Assembly: GCA_036005065.1 (NCBI GenBank)
Contig: DASYQW010000027.1
Coordinates: 1 to 38,147 of the forward strand
DNA length: 38,147 nt
DNA from: Candidatus Methylomirabilota bacterium
GTDB lineage: Bacteria > Methylomirabilota > Methylomirabilia > Rokubacteriales > DASRDR01
Direction: 5' to 3'
Shown: one piece after another, positions 2,825-37,807 of the stretch
Layout: the number at the start of each line of letters is the position of its first letter
Position numbering within the stretch: the stretch's first letter is position 1
Program-made: the position numbers and the translations under genes
The notes under the pieces: generated by a model
Database searches by the model: none
What the model was told of the DNA's origin: nothing
The model's input: the letters and a program-made list of their open reading frames with translations, nothing else

Positions 2825-3343
2825 TCAGGCCCGCCCGGGCGGGAGGTGGGCCGTGCGCCGGGCCTGGAGGGCGGGATCGGCGTAGGTCATGAGATCGGGC
2901 TGGGCGCGACCGAGCATGACCTGGATGTAGGCCGGCTCGAGGCCCACGTTCTCGAACCCGTGGATGACGCCGGCCGGGGCGGAGACGCAGTCCCACCGCC
3001 CCAGCACCGTCTCGGCCCGGTGCCCGTCGGCGTCGTCGAGGAACACCCGGACCTTCCCCTCCAGGACGAAGAAGGCTTCTTCGACCTCGTGGCTGTGCGG
3101 GGCATTGCCCTGGCCAGGCGGCACGAACATCACGCTGAGCGTGAAGTGTTCAGCCGTGATCGCCCCGGGGTCGCTCTTCCCGGAGGCGCCGGTGCCGATG
3201 TAGCGGTGCTGGGCGCGGCGGTAGCCCTCGACCCGGGCGTCGGCGAACGCGTCCCAGTCGGCCGCGCGGTCCACGAAGCGCGCCACCCGGGCGCGGAGCA
3301 GCGCTGCGAGCGTGGGGTTCGGAACGTCGGCTGCCGTCGTCAT
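2825..3343 (-). CDS. small cupin-domain protein
   Basis: Single-domain cupin of 172 residues. The start is the ATG at 3343, preceded by AGGAGGG; the frame is open further upstream, but that part has no family similarity. The conserved cupin motif 1 is GNAPHSHEVEEAFFVLEGKVRV, which supplies His-His-Glu metal ligands. Motif 2 is APAGVIHGFENVG, which supplies the last His. Such proteins are often metal-dependent dioxygenases, isomerases or ligand sensors; the substrate here is unknown. It is the last gene of the long minus-strand block, 19 bases after the TctA-TctB stop. That position suggests a role in metabolism of the imported compound. Confidence 0.85.
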   Translation of the reverse strand: MTTAADVPNPTLAALLRARVARFVDRAADWDAFADARVEGYRRAQHRYIGTGASGKSDPGAITAEHFTLSVMFVPPGQGNAPHSHEVEEAFFVLEGKVRVFLDDADGHRAETVLGRWDCVSAPAGVIHGFENVGLEPAYIQVMLGRAQPDLMTYADPALQARRTAHLPPGRA

Positions 3344-29493: not shown

Positions 29494-29572
29494 CCGACCG
29501 ACTGACGGACCGGGTCCTCAGCCGAACCAGCGGGGGGCCGCCGTCCGACCCCACGCGCGCCCGAGATCGCGC
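29494..29572 (+). repeat. direct repeat, left copy
   Basis: About 79 bases beginning CCGACCGACTGACGGACC and containing GGTCCTCAGCCGAACCAGCG, then CCGCCGTCCGACCCCACGC and CCGAGATCGCGC. It matches the right copy at 31713-31798 with one 6-7-base gap and a few substitutions. On the minus strand it encodes the same [12 protein letters not shown]-stop tail as the trpG 3' end. The rest of the 449-base gap 29471-29919 holds no gene I can support. A TAGAAT at about 29653 with TGGGCA 17 bases earlier is a possible promoter for the glycosyltransferase gene. Confidence 0.8.
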
Positions 29573-29919: not shown

Positions 29920-31683
29920 ATGCCCAGACGAGTCCCATCGCTGTCCGTGGTGATTCCCGTTTACAACAGTGCAGCGATGCTGCCGGAGCTCGTCGCGCGC
30001 CTCGCGCCGGTGCTTCATTCGTGCGCCGGCCGGTTCGAGATCGTGTTCGTCAACGACGCGAGCCGCGACGGGAGCTGGGACGTGCTCGTCGAGCTGCGTC
30101 GCCGTCACGGCTGGATTCGCCCGATCGACTTGATGCGCAACTCCGGGCAGCACAACGCGCTGCTCTGCGGCATCCGGGCCGCGCGGTACGACCTCATCGT
30201 CACGCTCGACGACGACCTCCAGAATCCGCCGGAAGAAATCCCGAAGCTGCTGGACGCACTGGAAGATCACATCGATGTCGTCTATGGCGCGCCGTGCCAG
30301 GAGGTGCACGGGCGCTGGCGCGATCTGGCGTCACAGGCCACCAAGATCGCCTTGCAGAGGGTTCTGGGGGCGGAGACGGCTCGGATGGTCGGCCCCTTCC
30401 GCGTGTTCCGAACCGATCTTCGCCGGGCGTTCGACGACTACGAGGGTGCCTTGGTCAACATCGACGTCTTGCTCACCTGGGGCACCACGCGCTTCAAGGC
30501 CATTCGCGTCGGCCATCACGAACGGCGCACGGGCCAATCGAACTACACGTTCTGGAAGCTGCTGACCCATTCGCTCAACATGCTGACGGGGTTCAGCACG
30601 GCGCCCTTGCAGTGGGCGAGCATGCTCGGGTTCGCCGTGACGCTGTTCGGCATGCTGCTGTTCGCGTTCGTGCTGGGCCGATACGTCCTGCAGGGCGCGA
30701 GCGTGCCCGGCTTTGCGTTCCTGGCGTCCGTCATCATCATCTTCTCGGGCGCTCAACTCCTGACGCTCGGCATCATCGGCGAGTATCTAGCCCGCATTCA
30801 TTTCCGGCTGATGGATCGGCCGTCCTACACCGTGAAGTCCGGCGATGCCGCTGCGGTCGCGCGAAGAGTCGAGGGTCACCCGTCCGCGACGTCCCGATAT
30901 TCCATCGAAGAAATCCGCAGGTTCTGGGGCGAGCAGGCGGTGACCCATCGGCAGTCGCCGGATGCGTCGTGGAGCGATCGCATGGCGATCGAGCTCGAGA
31001 TCCAGCAGCTGCTCGAGCACATCCAGGACGGCGATCGCGTGCTCGACATCGGGTGCGCGAACGGGTACTCGACGCTGCGGCTCGCGTCCCGGCGGGCCAT
31101 CGAGATTCTGGGGCTCGACTACATCCCGGAGATGGTAGAGCAGGCGCGCGCTCGTCTCGAGGCCGAACGCCACTCGCTCACGGGACGCGTGGTGTTCGAC
31201 GTCGGCGACATCACGGCGCTCGACCGGCCGGCGGGCGCGTTCGACAAGGTCATCGTCATTCGCGTCCTCATCAGTCTGAGAACGTGGGACAACCAGGTGA
31301 AGGGCCTGACCGAAGCGCTCCGCATGCTGAAGCCCGGCGGCACGCTGCTGTTGTCCGAAGCGACACGGCAAGGCTGGGAGCGGCTGAACGGTTTCCGCCG
31401 CGAATGGGGATTGCCGGACATCCCGATGCCGTCGTTCAACGAATACCTCGATCTGGATCGCGTCATCGAGGCCGCTCGCCCGCACGCGGATCTCGTCGAT
31501 GTGGTGCACTTCGCGAGCACCTATTACGTCATGACCCGGGTTCTGAAGCCGCTGCTCATCGAAGCGCTCGGGCGGCCGATCGACGTCGCCGATCCGGGCA
31601 TGGAATGGAATCGCTTTGCCGCGCAGCTGCCGCCGGGCGGCGACTATGGCGTTCAGCAGCTCATGATCTTTCGCAAGCGCTGA
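29920..31683 (+). CDS. GT2 glycosyltransferase (GtrB/ArnC-like) fused to SAM methyltransferase
   Basis: 587-residue two-enzyme protein. Residues ~8-230 form a family 2 glycosyltransferase of the polyisoprenyl-phosphate type: SVVIPVYNSAAMLPELV, NDASRDGSW, DDD at 97-99 followed by LQNPPEEIPKL, and GQSNYTFWKL near 206-214. Two transmembrane helices (~233-253 and ~263-285) anchor it in the inner membrane and lead to IGEYLARIHFR, a classical end for such enzymes. Then residues ~325-587 are a Rossmann methyltransferase with motif I VLDIGCANG (374-382), motif II LGLDYIPEM and ALRMLKPGGTLLLSE. The gene uses visibly less GC-rich codons than its neighbours and lies between direct repeats, suggesting acquisition. 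Probable role: surface glycan or lipid-linked sugar modification. Confidence 0.9.
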   Translation: MPRRVPSLSVVIPVYNSAAMLPELVARLAPVLHSCAGRFEIVFVNDASRDGSWDVLVELRRRHGWIRPIDLMRNSGQHNALLCGIRAARYDLIVTLDDDLQNPPEEIPKLLDALEDHIDVVYGAPCQEVHGRWRDLASQATKIALQRVLGAETARMVGPFRVFRTDLRRAFDDYEGALVNIDVLLTWGTTRFKAIRVGHHERRTGQSNYTFWKLLTHSLNMLTGFSTAPLQWASMLGFAVTLFGMLLFAFVLGRYVLQGASVPGFAFLASVIIIFSGAQLLTLGIIGEYLARIHFRLMDRPSYTVKSGDAAAVARRVEGHPSATSRYSIEEIRRFWGEQAVTHRQSPDASWSDRMAIELEIQQLLEHIQDGDRVLDIGCANGYSTLRLASRRAIEILGLDYIPEMVEQARARLEAERHSLTGRVVFDVGDITALDRPAGAFDKVIVIRVLISLRTWDNQVKGLTEALRMLKPGGTLLLSEATRQGWERLNGFRREWGLPDIPMPSFNEYLDLDRVIEAARPHADLVDVVHFASTYYVMTRVLKPLLIEALGRPIDVADPGMEWNRFAAQLPPGGDYGVQQLMIFRKR

Positions 31684-31712: not shown

Positions 31713-31798
31713 CCGGCCGACTGACGGACCGGAGAGACGGGTCCTCAGCCGAACCAGCGGGGCGCCGCCGTCCGACCCCACGCCCCCGAGGTCGCGCC
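31713..31798 (+). repeat. direct repeat, right copy (overlaps trpG 3' end)
   Basis: About 86 bases matching 29494-29572 (CCGACTGACGGACCGG, GGTCCTCAGCCGAACCAGCG, CCGCCGTCCGACCCCACGC, CCCCGAGGTCGCGC). The TCA at 31745-31747 is the complement of the trpG stop. The repeat thus encodes the last ~16 residues of TrpG and extends beyond the stop. Confidence 0.8.
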
Positions 31799-32371
31799 GG
31801 GCTGCTCACAGCCTTCCAAGAAGTTGCGCAACAGGTCCAGGCCCACCGCCGTGAGGACCGACTCCGGGTGGAACTGGACGCCCTCCACGGCCGCCGCTCG
31901 GTGACGGAGGCCCATGACGAGCCCGTCCTCCGTCCACGCCGAGACTTCGAGCACGTCCGGCAGCCCCTCCCGGCGGACGATCAGCGAATGGTACCGCGTC
32001 GCCTCGAAGGGGTTCGGAAGGCCCGTGAAGACGCCGCGCCCATCGTGGTAGACGCGGGAGGTCTTGCCGTGGATCGGCGCGGGGGCCCGGCTCACCACGC
32101 CCCCGAAGACCTCGCCGATGCACTGGTGGCCGAGGCAGACCCCGAGGATGGAACACCGTCCGGCGAAGGCGCGGATGAGGGCGTTCGAGACGCCGGCCTG
32201 AGCCGGCGCGCCGGGGCCCGGTGAGATGACGATCGCGGCCGGCGCGAGCCGCTCGACCTCGTCCAGGGCGATCCGATCGTTCCGGCGGACGACCGGCGTC
32301 GCGCCCAGCTCGCCGAGGTACTGCACGAGGTTGTAGGTGAACGAGTCATAGTTGTCGATGACCAGCAACAT
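31745..32371 (-). CDS. trpG: anthranilate synthase glutamine amidotransferase subunit (TrpG/PabA)
   Basis: Class I glutamine amidotransferase that supplies ammonia to TrpE for anthranilate synthesis. [20 protein letters not shown] starts the protein; SPGPGAP, the catalytic Cys in [12 protein letters not shown], and the His-Glu pair in [11 protein letters not shown] complete the triad. The start at 32371 has GAGAGGAG directly upstream and lies 26 bases inside the trpE 3' end. The length is 208 residues. Family members normally end near LRNFLE; the extra [16 protein letters not shown] tail is encoded by the direct repeat and is probably non-essential. It could serve both anthranilate and p-aminobenzoate synthesis. 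Confidence 0.97.
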
Positions 32372-33842
32372 GCTCCTCTCCCGCGTGTTCGATGGCCTTG
32401 AGCAGACCCCGGGCCTTGGCCACGCACTCCTGGTGCTCGCGCTCGGGGACCGAGTCGGCGACGACACCCGCGCCGGCCTGGACATAGGCGGTCTGACCGT
32501 GCACCAGGACCGTCCGGATGGTGATCGCGGTGTTCAGCGCGCCGTCGAACCCCACGTACCCGACGGCCCCGGCGTAGGGGCCCCGCGCCACCGGCTCCAG
32601 CTCGTCGATGATCTCCATCGCCCGAACCTTGGGCGCCCCGCTGACCGTCCCGTGGGGGAAGACGGCCTGGAGGACGTCCCAGGCGCCACGGCCCGGCTCG
32701 AGCGCCCCTTCGACGTGGGACACCAGGTGCATCACGTGCGAGTACCGCTCGATCGCCATCAGCTCCGTCACGCGGACGCTCCCGTAGCGCGCCACGCGCC
32801 CGACGTCGTTCCGGGTGAGGTCGACGAGCATGACGTGCTCGGCGCGCTCCTTGGTGTCGGCCCGCAGCGCCTCGGCGAGCGCCCCGTCCTCGGCCGGCGT
32901 CCGGCCGCGCGGGCGCGTCCCGGCCAGCGGCCGCATGTCGACCCGGCCGTTCTCGAGGCGCACCAGTCGCTCCGGTGACGATCCCACCAGTGTCCCGGCC
33001 CCGAAGTCGAGGAGGAACATGTACGGCGAGGGATTCAGAACCCGGAGGGCGCGGTAGATGGCGAGCGGATCGAGGCCCGGGACCGGGGTGGCGAAGCGCT
33101 GCGAGAGGATGACCTGATAGATGTCGCCGGCCCGGATCAGCTCCTGGGCGCGCTCGACGCCGGCGCAGTAGGCCTCGGGAGTCAGGTTGGCCCGTGTCGT
33201 AAGCGGCGGGGCGCTCGGTGGGTGCCAGGCCGGCCGGGGCGCTCGGAGTCGGGCCAGCATGGCCGCCACGCGCGCCTCGGCGTCGCGGTAGGCGGCCTCG
33301 GCCCCGTCGTCCAGGAACGCGTTGGCGACGACCCGGAGCGTGTGACGGAGGTGATCGAAGACGACCACGCTGTCCATCAAGGCGAGCCGGAAGACGGGAA
33401 GGCCGAGGTCGTCGGCCGGACGCCCGGGCAGGCGCTCCCAGAGCCGCACCGCGTCGTAGCCGAGGTAGCCGAGGAAGCCGCCGACGAAGGGCGGGAGGTC
33501 GGGCCGGGGCTCGGCCCGGTATCGCGCGAGGTACTCCCGGACCACCGCCAGGGGCTGGCCCGGCTCGGTGACGGTGCCGTCGCCGCCGGTCACCCGGACC
33601 TGCTCGCCGTCGCACTCGAGGACCAGCCGGGGCGCGCCGCCCAGCACCGAGAAGCGGGCCACCTGGGCATTGCCCTCGACGCTTTCGAGGAGGAAGCTCG
33701 ACGGCAGATCCCGGAGCTTCAAATAGGCGGAGATCGGGGTCTCCAGATCCGCCAGGAGCTCGCAGGAGACGGGCACGACATTAGCCTCCCCGCGGACGCT
33801 GAGGAACTCGCTGTGGCTCGGCTCCAGCACCACCCCGCGCAT
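32346..33842 (-). CDS. trpE: anthranilate synthase component I
   Basis: 498-residue chorismate-utilising enzyme, first step of tryptophan synthesis; forms a complex with TrpG. The N-terminal feedback-inhibition motif is present ([10 protein letters not shown]; the LLES signature binds tryptophan). Catalytic segments include [56 protein letters not shown] and the C-terminal [13 protein letters not shown]. The ATG at 33842 follows GGAGGGAAGGG. It overlaps trpG by 26 bases. Expression is predicted to be controlled by the attenuator upstream (33862-34069). A PabB assignment is less likely because of the tryptophan leader. Confidence 0.97.
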
Positions 33843-33861
33843 CCCTTCCCTCCTTGACGAC

Positions 33862-33903
33862 AAAAAAGCCGAGGTCGCGGGACCCGCCCGCTCACCTCGG
33901 CTT
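33862..33903 (-). terminator. trp attenuator (intrinsic terminator) and antiterminator segment
   Basis: On the minus strand GCCGAGGT pairs with ACCTCGGC (33868-33901 overall), enclosing an inner GCGGG/CCCGC stem, and is followed by six T (33867-33862). It lies 20 bases before the trpE start codon, so it can only act as an attenuator. The inner segment CGGGCGGGTCCCG (33878-33890) can instead pair with CGGGACCCCGCCCG at 33953-33940, inside the end of the leader peptide gene. That alternative forms an antiterminator that breaks the terminator stem. Confidence 0.92.
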
Positions 33904-33934
33904 CGTTCCGGCTTCTCGACTCGCTGCTGGTCTG

Positions 33935-34030
33935 CTACACGGGCGGGGTCCCGGGCCCTCGGCGGACGCGCCAGCGCCACCACCACTGCCGGTCGGCACG
34001 CGTCAGGGGGTCGCCCAGGATTCGCCTCAT
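33935..34030 (-). CDS. trpL: trp operon leader peptide
   Basis: 31-codon open frame starting with ATG at 34030 and ending TAG at 33935, directly between the promoter and the trpE attenuator. Residues 16-20 read WWWRW: four tryptophan codons in five, an extreme enrichment for a rare residue. Ribosome stalling there under tryptophan shortage would free the downstream segment at 33940-33953 to form the antiterminator, switching on trpE and trpG. The codons after the Trp run (GPGTPPV) overlap the antiterminator arm. This is the classical arrangement of trp attenuation. The 5' untranslated part is very short, so translation may be nearly leaderless. Confidence 0.93.
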   Translation of the reverse strand: MRRILGDPLTRADRQWWWRWRVRRGPGTPPV

Positions 34031-34040
34031 GGTGCCGAGC

Positions 34041-34069
34041 ACCTTACGAGTCCGGCCCGGCCTTGTCAA
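34041..34069 (-). promoter_or_regulatory. predicted sigma-70 promoter of the trp leader-trpE-trpG operon
   Basis: A perfect -35 box TTGACA (34069-34064) and a -10-like TAAGGT (34046-34041) are spaced by exactly 17 bases. Transcription would begin only a few bases before the leader ATG at 34030. Confidence 0.85.
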
Positions 34070-34240
34070 GGAGAAACACGGGCCGGGGCCCGGATCGACG
34101 AGGGCCACATCGCGGCGCGGGCCGACCCCCAAGCGGCTTTCCGAACGGGGCAGAGGCCCGTTGACACGGGCCTTGCCGTCCCCTAGACTCCGGCCAGTCT
34201 CCGATGTCTTCCGTCGCCTGAGAGGGGGTCCAGGCTCTCG

Positions 34241-37200
34241 GTGCGTTGCGTTCGGTGCCAACAGGATAATCCGGCCGGGGCGCGGTTCTGCAACGCCTGC
34301 GGCACGTCCTTTGAGGCCGCCTGTCCCACCTGTGGCCATCCCAACGCGCCTGGCAGCCGGTTCTGCAACGAGTGCGGGCAGACCCTGAGCGCGCTCCCGG
34401 CGGCGCACCGGTTCGGCTCCCCGAGGGCGTACACGCCCCCCCACCTGGCCGAAAAGATCCTGAGCACCCGCTCTGCTCTGGAAGGGGAACGGAAGCAGGT
34501 CACCGTCCTCTTCGCCGACCTCAAGAGCTCGCTCGAGCTCCTGGCCGAGCGGGATCCCGAGGAGGGCCGGGCCCTGCTGGACCCGGTGCTCGAGCGCATG
34601 ATGGAGGCCGTTCACCTCTACGAGGGCACGGTCAACCAGATTCTCGGCGACGGCATCATGGCGCTCTTCGGCGCGCCGGTCGCCCACGAGGATCACGCCG
34701 TCCGCGCCTGCTACGCGGCCCTCCGGATGCAGGAGAGCGTGAACGCGTACGGCGACGAGGTCCAGCGCTTGCACGGCCTCCCTCTGCAGATCCGGGTCGG
34801 CCTCAATTCGGGCGAGGTGGTGGTGCGCTCGATCGGGAACGACCTGCACACGGACTACATGGCGGTCGGCCAGACGACTCATCTGGCGGCCCGCATGGAG
34901 CAGATGGGAAAGCCCGGCTCGGTCCTCGTCACGGCGGACACCTTCCGGCTGGCCGAGGGGTCGGTCCAGGCGCGCTCGCTCGGCCGGGTGCCGGTGAAGG
35001 GGCTGGAGGCTCCGATCGAGGTATACGAGCTGACGGGGGCGCAATCCGTGCGGTCGCGGCTCCAGGCCGCGATGGCCGGGGGGCTCAGCCCGTTCGTCGG
35101 CCGCGAGCTCGAGATGGATCAGCTCGGAGGAAGCCTGGAGCCGGCCCGATGGGGGCACGGCCAGGTGGTCGCGGTGGTGGGCGAGGCCGGGGTGGGGAAG
35201 ACCCGACTGTTCTTCGAATTCACGCGCTCGCCCCGCACCGAGGGGTGGCTCGTCCTCGCGGCGAGTGCCGTGTCCTATGGGAAGACGACCCCGTATCTGC
35301 CCGTCATCGATCTCCTGCGGGGCTACTTCCACCTCGAGGAGCGCGAGGCGCCGGGTTCGATCCAGGAAAAGGTCACGGCGAAGGTCCTGGCGCTGGACGA
35401 GCGGCTGAAGGACGCGATCCCTCCGCTCCTGTCGCTCCTGGACGCTCTTCCCGACGACGACGCGTTCCGGACCCTCGGGCCGCCGCAGCGGCGGGCCCGG
35501 ACGCTGGAGGGCCTCAAGCGGCTCTTCCTCAGCGAGAGCCGGCGTCAGCCCCTCCTCCTGGTCATCGAGAGCCTCCACTGGATCGACAGCGAGACGCAGG
35601 CCTGCCTCGACACGCTGATCGAGAGCCTGCCGACCGCCCGGCTGCTCCTCCTCGTCAGCTACCGTCCGGAGTACCAGCACGGGTGGGGCAGCAAGACCTA
35701 CTACACCCAGCTCCCGATGGATCCCCTGGCGCCGCCCAGCGCCAGTGTGCTCCTGCAGGCGCTCATCGGGGGTGACCCGGGGCTCCAGCCCCTCAAGCGC
35801 CAGCTGATCGATCGCACCGAAGGGAACCCGTTCTTCCTGGAGGAAAGCGTCCGGCGCCTCACCGAGGTCGGTGTCCTGGTGGGGGAGCGCGGCGCGTACC
35901 GTCTGGGGAAGCCGCTACACACCGTCAAGGTCCCGGCCACCGTGCAGGCGGTACTGGCCGCGCGGATCGATCGGCTCCCGTTCGAGGAGAAACGCCTTCT
36001 CGAAGCGGCGTCCGTCATCGGCAAAGACGTGCCCTTCGCGCTCCTGGGGGCCATCGCCGATCTGCCCGAGACCGAGCTCCGCCGCGGGCTCATGCACCTC
36101 CAGGCCGCCGAGTTCCTGTACGAGACGGCCCTGTTTCCCGAGCTCGAGTACACCTTCAAGCACGCCCTGACCCACGACGTCGCCTACGGGAGCCTCCTCA
36201 ACGAGCGGCGCCGCGGTCTCCACGCCCGGATCGTGGAGGCCATCGAGACGGTGTACCCCGATCGCCTCGCCGACCAGGTCGAGCGCCTCGCCCACCACGC
36301 TCTCCAGGGGGAGCGGTGGGAGAAGGGCCTGACCTACCTCCGGCAGGCGGGGGCCAAGGCCGCCGTCCGCTCGGCCAACAGCGAGGCGGTGACGTGCTTC
36401 GAACAGGCTCTGGCGGCGCTCAAGCACCTGCCCGAGCGCCGCGAGACGATCGAGCAGGCCATCGATCTTCGGTTCGAGCTGCGCCCGCTGTTGCTCCAGC
36501 TCGGGCGGCTCCCCGAGGTGCTGGTGCGGTCCCAGGAGGCCGAGCGCATGGCTCGAGACCTCGGGGACGAGTCGCGCCTGGCTCACGTCTACTCGTATCT
36601 GATCAACTACCACTACCTGAAGGGCGAGCCCGACCGGGCGATCGAGTACGGCCAGCGATGCCTCACCATGCGCGGACCTGGCCAGGACCTCAGCCTCCAG
36701 GCGCTGGCGCGCCGATACATGGGCCACAGCTACCACGCCCAGGGCCAGTACGCCCTGGCCGAGTCGATCCTCAAGGAGAACCTGGCAGTGCTGGAGGCCG
36801 AGGGCGGCGGCGACGCGGTCGCCGATCCCATCTCGTACGTGGGCTCGTGCGCGTGGCTCGCCTTCAGCCTGATCGAGCTCGGAGACTTCGACGCGGCCCA
36901 GACGTACGTGACCCGGGCCCAGAAGGTGGCCGATCCCAGCCAGCAGGCCTACAGCCAGGCGATCGCCTGGACTCTGGCCGGCCTTCTCTGGGTCCGGCGC
37001 GGGTACTTCGAGGCGGCGGTGCCGCCGCTGGAGCGGAGCCTCGAGGCGTGTCGGGAAAAGCACCTCACCGTCTGGCAGCCGATCCCGTCTTCGCTCCTCG
37101 GCCTCACCCTGACCCGTCTGGGCCGGGCGGCCGACGGCCTGCCCTTGCTCGAGGAGGGGGTGAAGCTGAGCGAGGAGGTAGGAATCCGAGCCTACCTCGC

Positions 37201-37807
37201 CCTCTGGAGCGGGCAGCTCGCCGAAGGGCTCTTCTTGGCCGGCCAGACCGAGCAGGCCGGGATCGCCGCGCAGGGCGCCCTCGACCTCGCCCTGGCCCAC
37301 CGGGAACGGGGGCATCAGGCGTGGGCCCTCCGGCTCCTCGGCGAGATCGCCTCTCATCGCGAACCGCCGGCGACGGAGTCGGCGGAGGCGTACTACCTGC
37401 AGGCGGTGGGGCTGGCCCAAGAGCTCCAGATGCGCCCGCTCCTGGCGCTCAGCGACCTCGGGCTGAGCCGACTGTATCGGCTGATGGAGAACCGCCCGAA
37501 AGCCGAGGAGCACCTGACCCGCGCGACCGCCCTCCTCTGCGACATGGACATGCGGTACTGGGTGCGGGAGGCCTGGGCCGAGCTCCGCGAGATCGGAGAG
37601 CTGTTCATCGTCGGGCGGGAGCACCGCGCGCTCTACGACTATCTGACCCAGATGCTCTCGGTCGACGAGCGGCTCCTGGTGCTGCTCGACCGGCGGCAGG
37701 AGGACCGGCGGGAGGACTCAGGCGAGCAGGTGCCCGAGCGGCGGCGAACCGACCGGCGCCGGGGCGCCCCGCCGCCGCACGGCCTCGTGATCATCACCCC
37801 GCCCTGA
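34241..37807 (+). CDS. zinc-ribbon / class III cyclase / AAA ATPase / TPR regulatory protein
   Basis: 1188-residue cytoplasmic multi-domain protein. Residues 1-50 form two zinc ribbons (Cys3, 6, 17, 20 and Cys28, 31, 42, 45). Residues ~84-265 are a class III nucleotide cyclase domain with metal Asp93 (LFADLKSS) and Asp137 (ILGDGIMALFG). The usual purine-contact Lys is Gln133 and the usual Asn of the NxxxR pair is His214 (THLAARMEQ), so activity is doubtful. Residues ~285-560 are an AAA_16 ATPase (FVGREL; Walker A GEAGVGKT at 314-321; Walker B LLLVIESLHWID). The remainder up to ~1120 is helical TPR-like repeats. The tail has DRRQEDRRE and ERRRTDRRRG, as in the small protein at 29189. The start is a GTG with a weak ribosome-binding site. 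Signalling role inferred. Confidence 0.9.
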   Translation: MRCVRCQQDNPAGARFCNACGTSFEAACPTCGHPNAPGSRFCNECGQTLSALPAAHRFGSPRAYTPPHLAEKILSTRSALEGERKQVTVLFADLKSSLELLAERDPEEGRALLDPVLERMMEAVHLYEGTVNQILGDGIMALFGAPVAHEDHAVRACYAALRMQESVNAYGDEVQRLHGLPLQIRVGLNSGEVVVRSIGNDLHTDYMAVGQTTHLAARMEQMGKPGSVLVTADTFRLAEGSVQARSLGRVPVKGLEAPIEVYELTGAQSVRSRLQAAMAGGLSPFVGRELEMDQLGGSLEPARWGHGQVVAVVGEAGVGKTRLFFEFTRSPRTEGWLVLAASAVSYGKTTPYLPVIDLLRGYFHLEEREAPGSIQEKVTAKVLALDERLKDAIPPLLSLLDALPDDDAFRTLGPPQRRARTLEGLKRLFLSESRRQPLLLVIESLHWIDSETQACLDTLIESLPTARLLLLVSYRPEYQHGWGSKTYYTQLPMDPLAPPSASVLLQALIGGDPGLQPLKRQLIDRTEGNPFFLEESVRRLTEVGVLVGERGAYRLGKPLHTVKVPATVQAVLAARIDRLPFEEKRLLEAASVIGKDVPFALLGAIADLPETELRRGLMHLQAAEFLYETALFPELEYTFKHALTHDVAYGSLLNERRRGLHARIVEAIETVYPDRLADQVERLAHHALQGERWEKGLTYLRQAGAKAAVRSANSEAVTCFEQALAALKHLPERRETIEQAIDLRFELRPLLLQLGRLPEVLVRSQEAERMARDLGDESRLAHVYSYLINYHYLKGEPDRAIEYGQRCLTMRGPGQDLSLQALARRYMGHSYHAQGQYALAESILKENLAVLEAEGGGDAVADPISYVGSCAWLAFSLIELGDFDAAQTYVTRAQKVADPSQQAYSQAIAWTLAGLLWVRRGYFEAAVPPLERSLEACREKHLTVWQPIPSSLLGLTLTRLGRAADGLPLLEEGVKLSEEVGIRAYLALWSGQLAEGLFLAGQTEQAGIAAQGALDLALAHRERGHQAWALRLLGEIASHREPPATESAEAYYLQAVGLAQELQMRPLLALSDLGLSRLYRLMENRPKAEEHLTRATALLCDMDMRYWVREAWAELREIGELFIVGREHRALYDYLTQMLSVDERLLVLLDRRQEDRREDSGEQVPERRRTDRRRGAPPPHGLVIITPP

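Follow-up and report, generated by a model that had tools for sequence, protein, structure and literature searches.

The gap upstream of trpE in the window, as we call the whole 38,147-nt stretch of DNA analysed here, raises the question of whether this gene is controlled through the translation of a Trp-rich leader peptide and, if so, how such a device came to lie in its host. Both a short open reading frame (ORF) with consecutive Trp codons directly 5' of a trp biosynthesis gene and an intrinsic terminator between this leader and the first structural gene are present, and we consider it very probable that the region is a classical ribosome-mediated transcription attenuator, one through which the level of charged tRNA-Trp governs trpE-trpG. 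Ribosome-mediated attenuation had been proposed in an earlier sequence-only reading, and on the strength of the parts, the null models and the fold model we too find it the best reading. What we show are the parts, their improbability by chance and the predicted mutually exclusive folds; from these we infer where transcription starts, that the leader is translated, that termination occurs and that it responds to Trp.

The whole control region is read from the minus strand and occupies the gap that separates trpE (32346..33842, minus strand; anthranilate synthase component I, Pfam PF04715 and PF00425) from the divergent adenylate-cyclase-like gene on its opposite side (34241-37807, plus strand). 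The start of trpG (31745..32371, minus strand; glutamine amidotransferase, Pfam PF00117) overlaps the end of trpE. From 5' to 3', the region reads TTGACA, 17 nt, TAAGGT, ten bases, the leader ATG, the leader, TAG, a linker, the terminator, AAGGAGG and the trpE ATG. As the sequence-only reading had it, the leader ORF (33935..34030; MRRILGDPLTRADRQWWWRWRVRRGPGTPPV) has 31 codons, here followed by TAG (33937-33935), with four Trp in five codons: counting from the ATG at 34030, the sensor codons (33971..33985) are Trp 16-18 (33985-33977) and Trp 20 (33973-33971). A 31-nt linker (33904-33934) leads to the intrinsic terminator (33862..33903), which consists of a stem (33903-33894 with 33875-33866), an inner stem and six T (33867-33862). 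The hairpin from 33903 to 33866 has a computed energy of -27.0 kcal/mol, and its T tract, which had likewise been noticed before trpE, lies 19 nt 5' of the trpE ATG (33842); the ribosome binding site AAGGAGG (33849..33855) stands 6 nt before that ATG. On the other side of the gap, the cyclase gene has its own promoter, TTGACA-17-TAGACT (34161-34189, plus strand), in a style that matches the trp promoter. After trpG comes a glycosyltransferase-methyltransferase gene (29920-31683) flanked by a 61-nt direct repeat (87%; 29496-29556 and 31723-31783) with just two copies in the whole genome.

The promoter claimed in the sequence-only reading, TTGACA-17-TAAGGT, for which no strand had been stated, is found exactly at 34069-34041 on the minus strand (TTGACA at 34069-34064, TAAGGT at 34046-34041). 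TAAGGT is a weak -10, matching three of the six consensus bases, including the A at position 2 and the T at position 6, and is absent from the list of our promoter scan, which demands four of six. Transcription from this promoter would begin near 34035-34030, that is, nearly at the leader ATG, and the message from which the leader is translated would therefore have little or no untranslated 5' sequence (leaderless or near-leaderless). It seems to us unlikely that the attenuator is the same but not leaderless, with the true start farther upstream and AAGGTG, 9 nt before the ATG, acting as a Shine-Dalgarno-like element. This motif does look like a ribosome binding site at that spacing, and the three-of-six -10 also speaks for such a start. 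However, TTGACA stands at the exact 17-nt spacing, and TTGACA-N16-18-TANNNT arises in only 1/5000 shuffles of the intergenic region; moreover, the divergent promoter in the same gap is similar, and the scan lists no other promoter on the minus strand.

Two parts of the leader ORF are predicted to pair with the terminator. Segment 2b, at the ORF end (33939..33953), pairs in our folds with 33878-33891 through 14 pairs and one bulge, within one pair of the antiterminator given in the sequence-only reading (33940-33953 with 33878-33890). A further helix, missing from that description, joins GCCGAGG of segment 2a (33963-33957) to the terminator 3' arm (33874-33868). Segment 2a is a copy of the terminator 5' arm carried within the leader, and the antiterminator is therefore predicted to capture the terminator 3' arm as well, a somewhat unusual property. 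Antiterminator and terminator are predicted to exclude each other, and the pairing goes beyond chance in folds, shuffles and recodings. Before segment 3 exists, segment 2 pairs in the folds with the leader 5' end (segment 1, 34013..34031), start codon included, as in the classical four-segment scheme. Without a ribosome the RNA folds mostly into the antiterminator (average 0.76, with 0.14 for the terminator). The computed energies are -78.6 kcal/mol for the state with 1:2 and 3:4 pairing and -81.4 kcal/mol for the antiterminator state; thus, either outcome appears possible without a ribosome.

We propose that a shortage of charged tRNA-Trp would make the leading ribosome stall at codons 16-20 and leave segments 2a and 2b free to capture the terminator 3' arm and inner part, which would block the terminator and allow trpEG to be transcribed. 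When Trp is plentiful, the ribosome would instead reach the stop codon and mask segment 2; the terminator would then fold, and transcription would end 19 nt before trpE.

These positions were modelled at equilibrium by removing the RNA covered by the ribosome, whose leading edge was set at a distance of 15 nt, counted from the P-site codon's first base. The terminator probability was 0.00 at W16, W17, W18 and W20, then rose to 0.82 at codon 21 and reached 0.99 at the stop. Across edges of 9-16 nt it stayed at or below 0.01 with any Trp codon in the A site and reached 0.99 at the stop, the changeover falling at codons 21-23, just past the last Trp; at 17-19 nt W20 alone flipped (0.65-0.95), with W16-W18 remaining at 0.00. 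As a control, equilibrium folding of E. coli K-12 trpL gave no switch (terminator 0.96-0.98 at every codon), and the equilibrium calculation is therefore no validated test of the mechanism. In E. coli the choice between terminator and antiterminator is made during transcription, which we take to be what this control reflects. A co-transcriptional measure asks whether upstream RNA holds the 5' part of the terminator before the 3' arm is made. For E. coli K-12 trpL the 5' arm was held at 0.71 at both Trp codons and at 0.00 at the stop, as expected; in the window it was held at 0.99 at the Trp codons and, from codon 27 onwards, at 0.18-0.54, with 0.51 at the stop. In these models, a ribosome at the Trp codons frees segment 2 and one at the stop covers it, while the predicted co-transcriptional release at the stop is partial and less complete than in E. 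coli.

How easily could such an arrangement arise by chance? In our null model, dinucleotide shuffles of the intergenic region (33843-34240), a single one of 20,000 shuffles yielded an ORF 8-50 codons long with four Trp within five codons, and 41 of the 20,000 yielded one with three Trp in five codons. A full switch, defined as a terminator probability that stays below 0.05 at each of the four Trp codons and exceeds 0.9 at the stop, appeared in 5/1000 shuffles of the upstream 130 nt with the terminator kept. Furthermore, when the leader was recoded synonymously, following the codon usage of four genes of the window and with the terminator kept, only 2/1000 versions preserved it, and the antiterminator pairing is therefore not a by-product of the peptide. 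A chance origin of the Trp run and the switch is unlikely. These same frequencies, together with the intactness of every element, argue against a rival account in which a constitutive or partial terminator precedes trpE and the Trp-rich ORF is a chance frame or the remnant of a decayed attenuator. That account would fit the absence of the device from every relative sampled, the ease with which long open frames arise by chance in GC-rich DNA and the ordinary folding energy of the whole region relative to shuffles (z -0.34); we nonetheless regard it as quite improbable.

We give almost no credence to the idea that a TRAP-like Trp-binding RNA-binding protein, or another trans factor, acts on the same terminator. 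A TRAP-controlled trp leader has about eleven regularly spaced (G/U)AG triplets and is accompanied by an mtrB gene. A few GAG/UAG triplets do lie between leader and terminator, but by eye they number about five, their spacing is irregular, and the Trp codons would be left unexplained. A T-box leader was also considered and rejected, the window having no match to the T-box covariance model; Rfam as a whole, which includes T-box and would include any Trp leader family, gave no match at gathering score in the window, and its search of the region returned only two unrelated sRNA families (E 0.39 and 3).

The host genome (5.6 Mb in 419 contigs, the window being contig 27) is 97.9% complete and 4.4% contaminated. 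In an RpoB tree it falls with full support among genomes of the same order, with 83% identity to one of them, and judging from RpoB it groups with Candidatus Rokuibacteriota, whose wider phylum bears the name Methylomirabilota. In addition, the TrpE of G035, a genome of the host's order, is identical to that of L018, a record named Candidatus Rokuibacteriota. The sequence-only reading had seen an extension of ribosome-mediated trp attenuation in case the host belonged to a deeply branching uncultured phylum; by RpoB and this TrpE, the host comes from a mostly uncultured phylum, the Rokubacteria. Our genome set holds no other member of the host's own family, and no 16S gene was found in the host genome. 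TrpE is the only chorismate-binding protein we found there (a single PF00425 match); with no separate PabB found, the regulated TrpE may also serve folate synthesis, or the gene may be missing from the assembly. A single trpD lies on another contig, where its neighbours are non-trp genes by reading of the ORF translations.

The trpE gene itself points elsewhere. In the TrpE tree, the sampled Rokubacterial proteins group together (100/100), and a second clade (100/96) unites those of the remaining class. The window TrpE falls inside neither; it sits among 29 TrpE of the CSP1-3 phylum, in a clade supported at 100/99 with the window included and at 100/98 for the half that contains it, its exact sister branch being weakly supported (83/44). 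Its best identity is 65% in the CSP1-3 phylum versus 56% in the Rokubacterial order. Among the rows of the CSP1-3 phylum, one is named CSP1-3 and labelled Candidatus Sysuimicrobiota and another is named Armatimonadetes; the genomes of both (G095 and G096, respectively) stand in one phylum set. When we read those Rokubacterial upstreams inspected that show a gene, a thioredoxin-like gene precedes trpE in L018, L083, L084 and L086, and not in L105; by the same kind of reading, a prephenate-dehydrogenase-like frame closely precedes trpE in most upstreams of the CSP1-3 phylum. Based on these sequence comparisons, trpE was most likely acquired horizontally rather than inherited vertically as a Rokubacterial gene. 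TrpG identities are alike in all groups, with a median of 65 for each of Rokubacteria, the CSP1-3 phylum and the remainder of the class, the highest value (73) coming from Rokubacteria; transfer is therefore claimed for trpE only. We also observed that six genomes of the same order (G008, G010, G021, G022, G029 and G034), several of them more than 94% complete, have only distant PabB-like matches (E about 5e-56 to 1e-59) and show no ordinary trpE; this order may have lost or replaced the gene several times.

The nesting of TrpE in a CSP1-3-phylum clade, in an assembly of 419 contigs with 4.4% contamination, might also be read as a chimeric contig in which a CSP1-3-like trp segment is joined to Rokubacterial DNA, the leader then coming from another organism. 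However, the cyclase is 61% identical to its match in G008, its CSP1-3-phylum matches being far weaker, and the luciferase-like flanking gene is 74% identical to those of G008 and G007, with 72% to one CSP1-3-phylum genome (G147). Judged by these identities, both tested flanking genes are Rokubacterial; they lie on both sides of the segment, and a chimera would therefore need two joins. Moreover, the device is also missing from the 31 trpE upstreams of the CSP1-3 phylum. We hold a chimera to be very improbable.

The sequence-only reading had held that the attenuator would be refuted if relatives turned out to have no Trp codons or no terminator stem at this position. Such a lack is what we found: a Trp-rich ORF and a terminator occurred together in none of 72 usable trpE upstream regions of the host phylum, although ORFs with two Trp in seven codons were present, at scattered positions, in 21 of the 72. 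The refutation does not follow, since the window trpE was probably not inherited vertically, and what the absence weakens is the case for an ancestral device rather than the case for the present one. The scan covered 77 loci, from which we dropped L082, L112 and L178, which are the window itself, L087 (4 nt of upstream DNA) and L161 (a distant PabB-like paralogue); twenty loci with no usable trpE start (L113-L131 and L160) stand outside this count, as does L179, which served another purpose. In the CSP1-3 phylum, three Trp in five codons were found in 0/31 usable upstreams. This set comprises 30 loci minus L215 (no upstream DNA), hence 29, plus L239 and L240; L241, which has 26 nt of upstream DNA, and L242, whose identity as trpE is doubtful, were dropped. 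For the first 30 loci the search consisted of a Trp-rich ORF search and a reading of the 220 nt before trpE.

The same scan flagged Trp-rich leaders before trpE in some of 80 named loci from other phyla. Trp-rich short ORFs precede trpE in L034 and L044 (both Pseudomonadota), L046 and L028, among Myxococcota and Pseudomonadota records, one example being MKISNIKTNSWRWWWL in Methylotenera, and the scan is therefore able to find such leaders. A leader-peptide search of 95 phylum genomes (94 besides the host) gave no convincing homologue; many weak matches (E 0.01-1) are expected because the query has only 31 aa. The best foreign match (G065, E 7e-4) was discarded, as it contains an internal stop and, by reading, its neighbours are unrelated to trp. 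Separately, in a CSP1-3-phylum genome (G119), the trpE locus L230 carries at about 3004-3074 (minus strand) a T-box-like core, GGGTGGCACCGCGG, and a T-tailed hairpin before trpE; its Rfam T-box match (23 bits, E 0.035) falls under the gathering score. In the donor-like phylum, trpE may thus be under a different device that also senses tRNA.

A fuller history may be proposed, although we hold it only tentatively and think it could well be wrong. A Rokubacterium would have received its trpE from a donor resembling CSP1-3/Sysuimicrobiota, and the attenuator would have evolved de novo afterwards, with an origin independent of the attenuators of Proteobacteria and Actinobacteria. In this scenario, the copy of the 5' arm would bind both terminator arms and thereby capture the whole terminator, and the predicted consequences are equilibrium switching and read-through as the default if the leader is untranslated, the reverse of E. 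coli.

The evidence for the attenuator comes from one genome, as the 72 and 31 usable trpE upstreams yielded no second copy that could be compared for covariation. No relevant paper on a Rokubacterial or Methylomirabilota attenuator was among the matches listed in a literature search whose coverage leaves out most subscription journals. In the portions of a 2010 survey that concern this point, leader-peptide systems had, to its authors' knowledge, been shown only in Proteobacteria and Actinobacteria before its Firmicutes case, and the survey did not decide between spread by transfer and repeated origin (PMC2965389). A probable attenuator on a probably transferred trpE, lacking in the relatives sampled on the side of the host and on that of the likely donor, provides a case for this question.

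Among known systems, trpLE(G) of Sinorhizobium meliloti (rnTrpL/peTrpL) has, in the sections of the source describing this locus, a leaderless trpL, the RNA beginning with its ATG, and an attenuator that governs trpE(G), with trpDC as a separate operon (PMC7298713). The window resembles it in its probably leaderless or near-leaderless leader before trpE(G) and in having trpD elsewhere, on another contig; it differs in phylum, in its leader of 31 rather than 14 aa, and in that trpE and trpG are separate overlapping genes. With E. coli trpL it shares consecutive Trp codons, a stop placed for the ribosome to cover segment 2, and alternative 1:2, 2:3 and 3:4 pairings. Unlike in E. coli, the window antiterminator is predicted also to pair with the terminator 3' arm (2a:4) and to win at equilibrium, whereas the free E. 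coli leader is 0.98 terminator, and the window has no certain upstream Shine-Dalgarno. The trp attenuators of Corynebacterium and Streptomyces are predictions, some with earlier experiments, in the relevant parts of PMC1262725. As described there, they have a GC-rich terminator with a U tract and double or triple UGG before trp genes, as does the window, which belongs to a different phylum. Altogether, the kind of device is known and the phylum is new, and the attenuator stands as a convincing single-genome prediction on a probably transferred gene.
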